A stretch of DNA of 64,000 nt from Homoserinimonas sp. OAct 916 (lineage in GTDB: Bacteria; Actinomycetota; Actinomycetes; Actinomycetales; Microbacteriaceae), in assembly GCF_003260275.1 (NCBI RefSeq), contig NZ_QJHB01000006.1, positions 124,001 to 188,000 of the forward strand, in the 5' to 3' direction. A model generated the notes under the pieces. The model ran no database searches, had not been told where the DNA came from, and saw nothing but the letters and a program-made list of their open reading frames with translations. Of the stretch, positions 44,481-47,382 are shown one piece after another. Made by a program: the position numbers and the translations under genes. The first letter of the stretch is position 1; each line of letters opens with the position of its first letter.

Positions 44481-44557
44481 TCTACTTGCTCCTTAGAATC
44501 GGGTGACGGTTCGCGTCTGAATACAGCTTACGGGGGGTGGTGAGCGCCGGTCTCGGC

Positions 44558-44950
44558 TCACGCCTTCCGCGACCGGGCCCTACGCCGGGGGCGCTTCTCG
44601 CCCCCTCCAGCGTGACGGAAAGCGGCGCGCACGCCAGCGCTGAAGCCGGCGAGTTTGATCAGGGGCCCACCGACGGTGGCGGCGACCAGGGAGACCAGAG
44701 CTGAGACATTGCCGGTGGCATCCGCCACGTTGCCGGTGATCTGGTCGACCCGCTGCAACTGGGTGTTGGTCGATGAGATCGTGTCGGCGGCCTCATCCAA
44801 CAGCGGCGTGGTGTGGTCGGTGATCTCTCGGATTGATCGGCTGGTTTCATCGAGAACCTTGCCGAGTTTGATGAGGGGAATCGTCAGCAGCCCGACCAGC
44901 ACCGCGAAGATCCCGGCGGCGATCAGTCCGGCAATGTCGCCACCAGTCAT
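44558..44950 (-). CDS. DUF948-family membrane protein
   Basis: A 130-residue protein from the ATG at 44950 (GGGAG upstream). A single N-terminal membrane helix (residues 5-28) is followed by a long amphipathic helix rich in T/S/D/Q (about 35-85), the DUF948 pattern, then a very basic tail KRPRRRARSRKA. It may associate with the inner face of the membrane. It lies downstream of rpsD and its terminator and upstream of alaS; an rpsD-DUF948-alaS order is common in Actinobacteria. Confidence 0.8.
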   Translation of the reverse strand: MTGGDIAGLIAAGIFAVLVGLLTIPLIKLGKVLDETSRSIREITDHTTPLLDEAADTISSTNTQLQRVDQITGNVADATGNVSALVSLVAATVGGPLIKLAGFSAGVRAAFRHAGGGEKRPRRRARSRKA

Positions 44951-45003
44951 TCGTGCACTCCCGTTCGTTCGCGTCGGCACCTGAACCGGTGCCGGTTAAA
45001 GGC

Positions 45004-45040
45004 TGTAGGGGGTGGGCCGCCAGGCGACCCACCCCCTACA
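45004..45040 (-). terminator. Strong hairpin terminator after rpsD
   Basis: A perfect 13-bp stem, TGTAGGGGGTGGG (45004-45016) with CCCACCCCCTACA (45028-45040) and an 11-base loop, lies 17 bases past the rpsD stop. A U-rich tail is weak (GCCTTTA on the minus strand), as is common in high-GC genomes. It separates rpsD from the DUF948-alaS genes. Confidence 0.8.
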
Positions 45041-45056
45041 TTAGCTGCACTGGAGA

Positions 45057-45686
45057 CTAGCGCGCGGCGTAGTACTCCACCACGAGCTGCACTTCACAGG
45101 TCACGGGGACCTCGGCACGCTTCGGGCGACGCACGAGGCGTGCCTGCAGTTTGTCGATCTCCACCTCGAGGTAGGCGGGGAGCTTCGGCAGCACGTCGAC
45201 GTGGGCGCCGGCAGCGGCGACCTGGAACGGCTCCATGCTCTCTGACTTGGGGTGCACGTGCACCAGCTGGCCGGGCTTGACCCGGAACGACGGCCGGTCG
45301 ACGCGCTGGCCGTCCACCATGATGTGACGGTGAACGATCATCTGGCGGGCCTGGGCAGTGGTGCGGGCGATTCCGGCACGAACAACCAGGGCGTCCAAGC
45401 GCTGCTCGAGCAGCTCGACCAGGTTCTCACCGGTCAGGCCGGGAGCACGACGGGCTTCCTGAAAAACGATCTTGAGCTGCGCTTCGCGAATGCCGTACTG
45501 GGCACGCAGACGCTGCTTCTCGCGCAGACGCACGGCGTAGTCGGAATCGGTCTTGCGTTTGGTGCGGCCGTGCTCACCCGGAGCATAGGGGCGCTTCTCG
45601 AGGTACTTGGCTGCTTTTGGCGTGAGCGGGATGCCCAGGGCGCGCGACAGCCGGGTCTGGCTATGGGTACGTGACTTGGTAGACAC
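45057..45686 (-). CDS. rpsD: 30S ribosomal protein S4 (zinc-free form)
   Basis: The 209-residue primary 16S rRNA-binding protein, with YAPGEHGRTKRKTDSDYAVRLREKQRLRAQYG near residues 30-62 and the S4 RNA-binding domain RLDALVVRAGIARTTAQARQMIVHRHI near residues 95-122. The N terminus lacks the CxxC zinc cysteines, so this is the C-minus form. It starts with GTG and AAAGGA 3 bases upstream. Unlike in E. coli, it is not in the alpha operon; it has its own promoter, a 174-base leader and its own terminator. Confidence 0.97.
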   Translation of the reverse strand: MSTKSRTHSQTRLSRALGIPLTPKAAKYLEKRPYAPGEHGRTKRKTDSDYAVRLREKQRLRAQYGIREAQLKIVFQEARRAPGLTGENLVELLEQRLDALVVRAGIARTTAQARQMIVHRHIMVDGQRVDRPSFRVKPGQLVHVHPKSESMEPFQVAAAGAHVDVLPKLPAYLEVEIDKLQARLVRRPKRAEVPVTCEVQLVVEYYAAR

Positions 45687-45860
45687 GGGTTCCTTTCAAT
45701 TGATTGAACATCTGTCTTCAGACGCAAAACTCTCCGGGCACTCCGGGAGGCATGCAAGATTATGAGAAGAGGGATGTGCCACCGGGACCGTCCGGCTACA
45801 GGACACATCCCACCACGAGCGATGTTCGGCGCAGCCGCACTCGAACACCTAATGGAGGCG
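45687..45860 (-). promoter_or_regulatory. Structured rpsD leader with three hairpins
   Basis: The predicted rpsD 5' leader can form three stems. One has 8-bp perfect arms GGGATGTG (45771-45778) and CACATCCC (45804-45811) with a CCGG/CCGG inner pair. The second is CTCCGG/CCGGGAG (45732-45749, one bulge). The third is GTTCG/CGAAC (45824-45846) with an inner GGC-GCA-GCC. Such a leader is a candidate for S4 autoregulation, as known for rpsD in Bacillus. The fit to any known S4-binding leader was not tested. Confidence 0.55.
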
Positions 45861-45866
45861 GGATAA

Positions 45867-45896
45867 ATCCTAGCACGCCGGGGGCCAGCCGGTGAA
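45867..45896 (-). promoter_or_regulatory. rpsD promoter
   Basis: On the minus strand TTCACC (45891-45896) and TAGGAT (45867-45872) are 18 bases apart. TAGGAT is a frequent strong -10 in Actinobacteria. It would start transcription near 45860, giving a leader of about 174 bases. The promoter lies within 60 bases of the rarA stop. Confidence 0.6.
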
Positions 45897-45918
45897 CACA
45901 CCCGGCCTGGGAACTCGC

Positions 45919-47307
45919 TCAGCGCCCACGTATGATTCGGCGCAGTTTCTCCCAGCGCGAGGAGATCTCACGTTCGTTGCCGTGAACGGTCGGTCGATAG
46001 TAGCTCGCACCGGCCAACTCATCCGGCAAATACTGTTGCTGCAGCACGCCCAGCTCCGCGTCATGCGGGTACTTGTAGCCCGTGCCATGGCCGAGCCTCT
46101 TGGCGCCCGCATAGTGGGCATCGCGCAGGTGTTTGGGCACCCGACCGAAGTTTCCGGCCTTCACATCGGCGATCGCCTTGTTGATCCCGACGTACGCAGC
46201 GTTCGACTTCGGTGCGCACGCGAGGTACACCACCGCCTGTGCCAGCGGGATACGGCCTTCGGGCATCCCGATGAACTGCACCGCGTCGGCGCAGGCCACT
46301 GCGACCACCAGCGCCTGAGGGTCGGCGAGGCCGATGTCTTCTGAAGCAAGGATGATGATGCGCCGTGCGATGAACCGGGGGTCCTCCCCTGCCTCGATCA
46401 TGCGGGCCAGGTAGTGCAGCGACGCATCGGCATCAGAACCGCGCACCGACTTGATGAACGCACTGATCACGTCATAGTGCTCATCACCGTTGCGGTCATA
46501 ACGCAAGAGCGCCCGGTCGACGGACAGCGCCACCAATTCGGCGGTGATCTCAGGCAACGCGGTGTCACTGGTCTCGACGGCCTCAGCCGATCCTGGGGCC
46601 GATTGAGATTGCGAGGCGGCGTCGGCCTGGGCACGGGCGCTTCCGGCGGCCGCCTCCAATGCTGTCAATGCACGGCGGGCATCCCCCGATGCCAGCCGGA
46701 TGATCGTGGCACGTGCGTCGTCTGTGAGTACGTAGTGGCCGCCGAGACCTCGGGCGTCGGAAACGGCCCGGTCGATCACGGTCGCCAGATCCTCGTCGCT
46801 CAGTGGATGCAGGGTCAGCAGCAGAGACCGTGACAGCAGCGGCGAGATCACCGAGAATGATGGGTTCTCAGTGGTGGCCGCAACGAGGATGATCCAACCG
46901 TTCTCCACGCCGGGCAAGAGCGCATCTTGCTGTGCCTTGGAGAACCGGTGGATCTCGTCAAGGAAGAGGATCGTCGACAGGCCGTACATGTCACGGGAGG
47001 AAATGGCTTCCTCGAGTACCTGACGCACGTCGCGAACACCGGCGCTGACCGCCGACAGCTCAACGAACCGCCGCCCCGATGTGTGTGCAATCGCCTGGGC
47101 CAACGTGGTTTTGCCGGTTCCGGGTGGTCCCCAGAGGATCACCGAGATCGATCCGACCTTCGCGGTGGTATCGGTTGCGAGACCGACCAGAGGCGAACCC
47201 GGAGTGAGCAGGTGGCGTTGGCCGGCCACTTCGTCCAGGCTCGTCGGGCGCATCCGCACCGCCAGGGGCACCGGCGTGGAATGGAGCCCGGGTTGAGAAT
47301 CGACCAT
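45919..47307 (-). CDS. rarA: Replication-associated recombination protein RarA
   Basis: A clamp-loader-like AAA+ ATPase that acts at stalled forks. From the ATG at 47307 it has 462 residues: [17 protein letters not shown], Walker [12 protein letters not shown] near residue 65, Walker [23 protein letters not shown], sensor TTENPSF, and the C-terminal tetramerisation domain with [19 protein letters not shown] and GYKYPHD. About 30 low-complexity residues ([13 protein letters not shown]...) sit in the middle. The ATG at 47334 is possible but less likely, because a TAGTCT -10 lies only 7 bases before 47307. Confidence 0.94.
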
Positions 47308-47314
47308 GCCCACA

Positions 47315-47320
47315 AGACTA
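47315..47320 (-). promoter_or_regulatory. -10 element of a leaderless rarA
   Basis: TAGTCT (TANNNT) lies 7 bases upstream of the ATG at 47307, so the transcript would begin at the start codon. No ribosome binding site precedes this ATG. Confidence 0.45.
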
Positions 47321-47382
47321 TGGCGTGTCGACATCGAGAAATGTGCTGCTTCGAGGTTGCCCCCTGTCAGGCGCTTGGTTGC

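Follow-up and report, generated by a model that had tools for sequence, protein, structure and literature searches.

A conserved structured RNA upstream of rpsD in Microbacteriaceae and its probable role as an S4 autoregulatory leader

Comparative analysis indicates that the region upstream of rpsD in Homoserinimonas sp. OAct 916 encodes a real, conserved structured RNA. We interpret this RNA as an autoregulatory leader for ribosomal protein S4 of a new structural class, found here in Microbacteriaceae only, and give this reading a probability of roughly 0.75. The leader is most likely new in structure and in lineage and known in kind. An RNA that is tied to rpsD follows the pattern of ribosomal-protein leaders, such that feedback by S4 is the most economical reading. 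An earlier note on this DNA, made from the sequence alone, had already described a structured rpsD leader, and the comparative fold presented below confirms it.

The rpsD locus

The window, i.e. the whole 64,000 nt stretch of DNA that was analysed, carries rpsD on the minus strand (45057-45686). The open reading frame has a GTG start and encodes ribosomal protein S4 with 209 aa, the single S4 match in its own genome. Upstream on the same strand lies a gene at 45919-47334, which we take to be RarA-like and which is separated from rpsD by 232 nt. This spacer contains an extended -10 element TGCTAGGAT (TGnTAnnnT; 45867-45875, minus strand), of which the hexamer TAGGAT occupies 45872-45867. A weak -35-like TTCACC, assigned from sequence only, is found 18 nt ahead of it (45891-45896, minus strand). 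With a predicted start at about 45860 the leader comprises 174 nt (45860-45687, minus strand). For the two promoter hexamers, the start and the leader length the sequence is as the earlier note had described it. The ribosome-binding site GAAAGGA is located at 45691-45697 (minus strand).

The earlier claims of an own promoter and an own terminator held in part. The extended -10 element is kept in relatives, with a distance of 25-34 nt between the end of TGnTAnnnT and CGGCTG in 41 of 44 related leaders. From this conserved element the predicted start would fall at or beside the first conserved helix, i.e. at the 5' edge of the RNA. A consensus scan of positions 44500-46500, however, returned 0 promoters and 0 terminators, and for the former reason we consider the -35 element weak. 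A search of open-access PMC papers for start-site literature on Clavibacter provided nothing useful. Downstream of rpsD we found a strong hairpin (45004-45040, minus strand) with a z-score of -4.73, and 0 of 200 shuffled sequences were as stable. It lacks a T-run and was not returned by the scan; we regard it as a probable terminator without T-run. Judged by this 3' hairpin, the locus favours rpsD being a single-gene unit.

Relatives and alignments

Relatives were taken from 60 genomes, one per genus of Microbacteriaceae, and S4 was found in all 60. When the sequences upstream of the 60 genes were searched for the words CGGCTG and TAGCC, both occurred at suitable spacing in 44 (41 plus 3 more). 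Concerning these word placements, the first word of locus L027 was a false anchor, and L040 was missed though both words are visible in it. The remaining genera carry other leader types (see below). From the 44 word-placed leaders 39 were aligned with MAFFT, without fitting to a structure (alignment A1); five leaders with a missing P2, insertions or odd spacing were left out (L027, L029, L032, L049 and L050). A covariance model, R1, was built from the 39 relatives and used with a cut-off of E <= 0.1. Searching 99 chosen loci with it gave 97 matches, while L040 and L049 were unmatched at this cut-off though both words are visible in them. Because the resulting covariance-model alignment of the 97 matches (alignment A2) was fitted to the structure, it is biased in its favour.

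A conserved fold of the leader RNA

The predicted fold is composed, in order, of a closing helix P1, two hairpins P2 and P3 inside it, and a tail AUCCCUCU, all on the minus strand. P1 lies between the predicted start and the tail and pairs a 5' strand GCC (45857-45859) with GGC (45780-45778), as supported by comparison. Hairpin P2 (45821-45849), which is supported by the arm-swap test described below, has the stem GGUGUUCG/CGAACAUC, the closing pair G45840-C45831 and an 8-nt loop UGCGGCUG at 45839-45832. Hairpin P3 (45784-45811), also of comparative origin, consists of a lower helix GGGA/UCCC, a 4-bp upper stem GUCC/GGAC and a 7-nt loop UGUAGCC at 45800-45794. The tail lies at 45768-45775, and its CCC part is at least 90% conserved in A1. 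By complementarity we propose in addition a pairing between the two loops, GGCUG (45836-45832) with UAGCC (45798-45794), which spans 45794-45836. In the window, the spacer that follows has its best hairpin at 45724-45755 (minus strand). A third hairpin of this kind is usual, but its sequence and size vary widely in a thinned set of 83 spacers. Of the three stems in the earlier note P2 was recovered, and P3 in another pairing than that of the energy minimum, while the third belongs to the variable part. P1 and the loop complementarity are additions to that description.

The covariation score of A2 (94 distinct rows) was 0.342 compared to 0.136 ± 0.007 for shuffled alignments, and 0 of 500 shuffles reached it. 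Sliding the partners in A2 reduced the score to 0.15 or less. For A1 a similar score of 0.322 was obtained, compared to 0.150 ± 0.013 after shuffling. In A2 85.9% of the cells were paired, and 16 of 21 pairs had changed on both sides. P1 was paired in 96.7% of its cells with exchanges from GCC/GGC to GUC/GAC, and the upper stem of P3 in 98.4%. The lower share of P2 (66.5%) is due to bulges that shift the register.

As a second measure we exchanged the 3' arms between distant leaders and scored the cost in stability. Four rows without both words were skipped, and the sets were thinned to 59, 68 and 56 leaders for P1, P2 and P3, respectively. The swaps yielded z-scores of -5.9 for P1, -18.2 for P2 and -14.7 for P3. 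The own arm was better than the swapped one in 65% of the comparisons for P1 and in 90% for P2 and P3. Compensatory changes, the check that the earlier note had suggested, were found for P2 and P3, i.e. two of the three hairpins, and for the extra helix P1.

A tree-aware null in the manner of R-scape was applied with 60 simulations, for which 8 of the 97 rows were dropped and the remaining 89 thinned to 79. Two P3 pairs obtained E < 0.02. The best pair of P1, its middle one, reached E = 0.47 over all column pairs and E = 0.0014 over the proposed pairs alone, such that this null supports P1 weakly. No P2 pair was significant under it; register-shifted neighbours outranked the P2 pairs (columns 34-64 with E = 0.37 and columns 29-66 with E = 0.90), a ranking that bulges displacing P2 between the aligned rows would produce.

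The core of the leader (45860-45768, 93 nt) is more stable than its shuffled versions with a z-score of -3.73 and 0 of 200 shuffles as good. For the whole leader a z-score of -2.15 was obtained, with 8 of 200 as good. The minimum-energy second stem in the window, the point on which we correct the earlier note, pairs GGGAUGUG with CACAUCCC. This pairing breaks P3 and hides the conserved tail. In the window this alternative exceeds the conserved fold, taken without loop pairing, by about 8 kcal/mol in stability, and among the 97 aligned leaders P3 appears in the plain fold of 51. In 66 thinned leaders the lower helix GGGA/UCCC of P3 co-varies (z = -7.1), whereas no covariation was seen for the GGGAUGUG/CACAUCCC pairing (z = -0.6), which we therefore rejected as a stem of the family. 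By this comparison the alternative fold is not a family feature; it might represent an S4-free state in this species.

The proposed loop-loop contact

The two loop words, GGCUG and UAGCC, are almost invariant in A2, and they are complementary in 99.8% of the cells. Since loops that hardly vary provide no covariation, we infer their pairing from the complementarity. Four aligned members (L027, L121, L131 (genus g46) and L127 (genus g54)) are without P2 or its GGCUG loop, and all four keep UGUAGCC. The retention of UGUAGCC in members that lack GGCUG counts against a purely structural reason for the loop invariance. For the same reason we read P1, the tail and P3 including its loop as the core of the candidate protein site. 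We consider that the loop-loop contact is probably present in most members. As an observation in its own right, the genera g46 and g54 provide natural leaders without P2 that retain P1, the UGUAGCC hairpin and the tail.

Distribution and linkage to rpsD

R1 matches 217 of 299 Microbacteriaceae genomes, which represent 66 of 85 genera, with one match per genome except for four of the 217 that have two. No match was obtained in the other 82 of the 299 genomes, to which genus g85 contributes at least 12 listed members, and in these genomes rpsD manages without this RNA. Among 297 genomes that were sampled over the order, 13 had an R1 match, ten of them from the family and three marginal. The marginal matches outside the family (L100-L102; E = 0.04-0.10) were rejected, since their loci contain no S4 and rpsD is found elsewhere in the same genomes.

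All 97 aligned R1 matches sit 26-223 nt upstream of an rpsD open reading frame in the same direction. For 43 of them, which come from loci fetched by S4, the nearness to rpsD is given by construction, so that the 54 loci fetched by R1 are the informative ones. A further set of at least 120 named stretches was selected for containing the loop words together with the tail, and not by S4, and all of these were searched with R1. This gave 73 strong matches (E < 0.001) and one weak match (L199, E = 0.03), a deltaproteobacterial MAG that was rejected because its locus contains no S4. Among the matches listed 70 of the 73 strong ones precede S4, while the other three (L156, L229 and L243) end at the edge of their stretch. 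Going by title, and again among the matches listed, we take 72 of the 73 to be Microbacteriaceae and the remaining one to be an unclassified actinomycete MAG; Frondihabitans was confirmed as a member of the family. Among the 46 unmatched stretches (of the at least 120) L231, a Leucobacter, is presumably the single family member.

The S4 feedback proposed in the earlier note is in agreement with this tie to rpsD (97 of 97 aligned matches, and 70 of 73 among the matches listed). The third hairpin, which had been part of that proposal, does not belong to the conserved part.

Candidate function and alternatives

In the proposed mechanism S4 that is in excess over 16S rRNA would bind, as free protein, to the leader fold. 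The two loops would form a kissing pseudoknot as part of the S4 site, and the bound S4 would lower the expression of its own gene, rpsD, be it through a block of translation, entrapment of the 30S subunit or a stop in transcription. Pairing with the ribosome-binding site by the core, the tail or the spacer was unconvincing in 74 thinned leaders (z-scores of -2.2, -0.2 and 1.2, respectively). An attenuator with a U-run was rejected, as the scan gave 0 terminator sites; in the 83 thinned spacers T made up a fraction of 0.30 behind the best spacer hairpin and of 0.23 in the spacer as a whole. With neither a conserved pairing to the ribosome-binding site nor a U-run terminator found, neither direct switch is supported.

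The alternative that survives best, an unlikely one in our judgement, is that rpsD has a conserved cis-element with a ligand other than S4, be it a small molecule, an RNase or a different ribosomal protein. The sequence of the leader names no ligand, and invariant loops would suit a binding site for any of these. Against them speaks that the RNA precedes rpsD only, in what its 3' hairpin marks as a single-gene unit, and this favours the encoded protein as the ligand. Clearly less probable still is a ligand-free role, in which the leader would serve as a stabilising or translation-enhancing 5' structure of a highly expressed mRNA. Such a role would fit the position of the RNA at the very 5' end and the extra variable hairpin ahead of the ribosome-binding site, but stability needs neither the invariant words GGCUG and UAGCC nor the tail. 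That a GC-rich spacer folds by chance, with its conservation being that of promoter DNA, is scarcely credible: the z-score of the whole leader is modest with 8 of 200 shuffles as good, yet compensatory changes and arm swaps oppose this for P2 and P3 and more weakly for P1, and the conserved part lies downstream of the -10 element.

We retain feedback by S4 as the preferred reading. If it is right, a lineage and a new fold would be added to S4 autoregulation, documented by an alignment that covers dozens of genera. Why the position of rpsD is so scattered is, according to the available text of a review (PMC10931766), an open question, and family-specific leaders on a stand-alone rpsD would provide material on how one protein acquires different RNA targets.

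Other rpsD leaders in the family and the order

Within the family, a group of members that lack the motif, including genus g85, has a different rpsD leader (L026, L033, L038, L042, L048, L055, L255-L259 and L261). It consists of a short initial hairpin that is followed by a CAUCCC-like tail and a conserved GUACGUCCGUGAG-like hairpin. A variant leader was seen in six further loci (L037, L040, L043, L058, L129 and L132), which share a long GUCGCGUGCAUU hairpin and a word resembling GGUCGUU-CCCUCACCG. Both loop words are found in L040, L129 and L132, and neither of them in L037 and L043.

For the order we collected 60 leaders of eleven families from the non-family genomes with an S4 match; the families f5, f15, f16 and f19 were left out. 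In five families (f3, f9, f13, f14 and f20; L290-L302, L308-L313 and L318-L323) a hairpin CUGGGRYC...GRYCCC was present in 25 of 25 rpsD leaders, with UAGCC or a variant of it (UGGCC, CGGCC or CAGCC) after the 5' arm. Its arms show exchanges such as GGGGUC/GACCCC, GGGACC/GGUCCC and GGGAUC/GAUCCC. In 23 of the 25 leaders 6 of 6 positions pair; this count is preliminary, as the 3' arm is a degenerate pattern for which the best of several sites was taken. On a preliminary basis we regard this hairpin as a putative second kind of rpsD leader. Rfam at gathering score gave no match in 20 loci of these wider leaders.

Two other families have a GGCUG-type hairpin only. In all six f12 leaders (L314-L317, L336 and L337) a hairpin GAAUCC-GCGGCUGC...-GGAUUC immediately precedes the ribosome-binding site, and in f10 (L303-L307) GGUUGGCUGC lies within a hairpin in 5 of 5, both judged by eye. 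The leaders of f7 (L284-L289) are of another kind that shares the tail word, with AAUCCCUCUUU in four of the six (L286-L289) and CCUCUUUCCC in the other two. Conserved words specific to single families were further seen in the rpsD leaders of f6 (L278-L283; for example CUCUCC...GGAGGCCAG) and f8 (L324-L326; for example a CGUCGUUCGCUGGUCGUCCC-like word).

Likeness to helix 18 of 16S rRNA

In the available part of PMC7356742, nt 505-507 of 16S rRNA are described to pair with nt 524-526 in helix 18, which S4 contacts. The same text names S4 and S12 as the sole proteins that contact helix 18 directly, and it reports that a non-native S4 complex is stabilised by RNAs unable to form the helix-18 pseudoknot (PMC7356742). 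The 16S gene of the own genome was not found in the assembly, and the comparison was made with two 16S loci from relatives in the family. At helix 18 both read CACCGGCTAACTACGTGCCAGCAGCCGCGG, in which CGGCU precedes AGCCG as it does in the leader loops. The P2 loop together with its closing pair reads GCGGCUGC in some members and GUGCGGCUGC in 52 of 97. Most of the reverse complement of GCAGCCGC, a word in the 530 loop, can also be made out by eye in this loop with its closing pair. Such a spaced word pair arises in 35-44% of shuffled 4.5-kb loci, so that only its place in the S4 site is notable; L253 contains a second spaced match outside helix 18.

Helix 18 (the 530 loop) shares CGGCU...AGCCG with the leader loops, a likeness that may be due to chance. 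In the rRNA the pairing forms inside one helix and its loop, whereas in the leader it would form between two hairpin loops, and the flanks differ. One can nevertheless ask whether the leader copies the helix-18 pseudoknot, with CGGCU of the P2 loop and AGCCG of the P3 loop corresponding to the strands at nt 505-508 and 523-527, such that S4 would read the decoding-centre pseudoknot in its own mRNA. Other families of the order carry one half each, a UAGCC-type hairpin in five and a GGCUG hairpin in two. We consider this idea doubtful, though worth stating. If it were true, the rpsD leaders of the whole order could be understood as modular variations on a single S4 recognition theme, and a real likeness would connect the mRNA switch with a step in 16S folding by which S4 complexes are affected, going by the available text of PMC7356742.

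Comparison with known S4 leaders

Rfam 15 at gathering score matched neither the window nor any of 20 related loci, and at E up to 10 it gave just one match to an sRNA, which we rejected as chance. The absent match agrees with the earlier note, in which no likeness to the Bacillus or E. coli S4 leaders had been recognised. The E. coli leader, that of the alpha operon, is known as Alpha_RBS, and its pseudoknot overlaps the start site. An actinobacterial S4 leader was not found in our searches of open-access PMC papers, and the RNA reported here may have been described elsewhere. A 2024 survey of 50 bacterial genomes lists 30 ribosomal leader candidates, with rpsD absent from its main text as far as available (PMC11109978).

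According to the available text of PMC10931766, S4 represses its own gene in both E. coli and B. subtilis. The rpsD leader of B. subtilis and other Firmicutes is likewise the untranslated leader of a stand-alone rpsD, with S4 repressing its own translation (PMC10931766). In the available parts of two sources it is described without a pseudoknot (PMC10931766; PMC7247131), in contrast to the loop pairing proposed here. A GUAA that resembles rRNA is given there as common to the S4 leaders of Firmicutes and Fusobacteriales (PMC7247131). Neither A1 nor A2 contains a conserved GUAA; the conserved words are GGCUG, UGUAGCC and AUCCCUCU. The E. coli leader resembles ours in that a pseudoknot is part of it, and differs in that it acts by ribosome entrapment and in that its operon includes other genes, as set out in the review text at hand (PMC10931766).

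The S4 motifs of Bacteroidia, Clostridia, Flavobacteria and Fusobacteriales were, like the RNA reported here, predicted from comparative genomics (Eckert and Weinberg 2020, PMC7247131). In the available text of that paper they belong to other phyla, none being actinobacterial, they have other structures, and their genes are listed with rpoA and rplQ, whereas here rpsD stands alone. Autogenous control by a ribosomal protein is found in Actinobacteria too, in the mycobacterial rpsO leader, for which the available text names another protein, S15 (PMC8470358).
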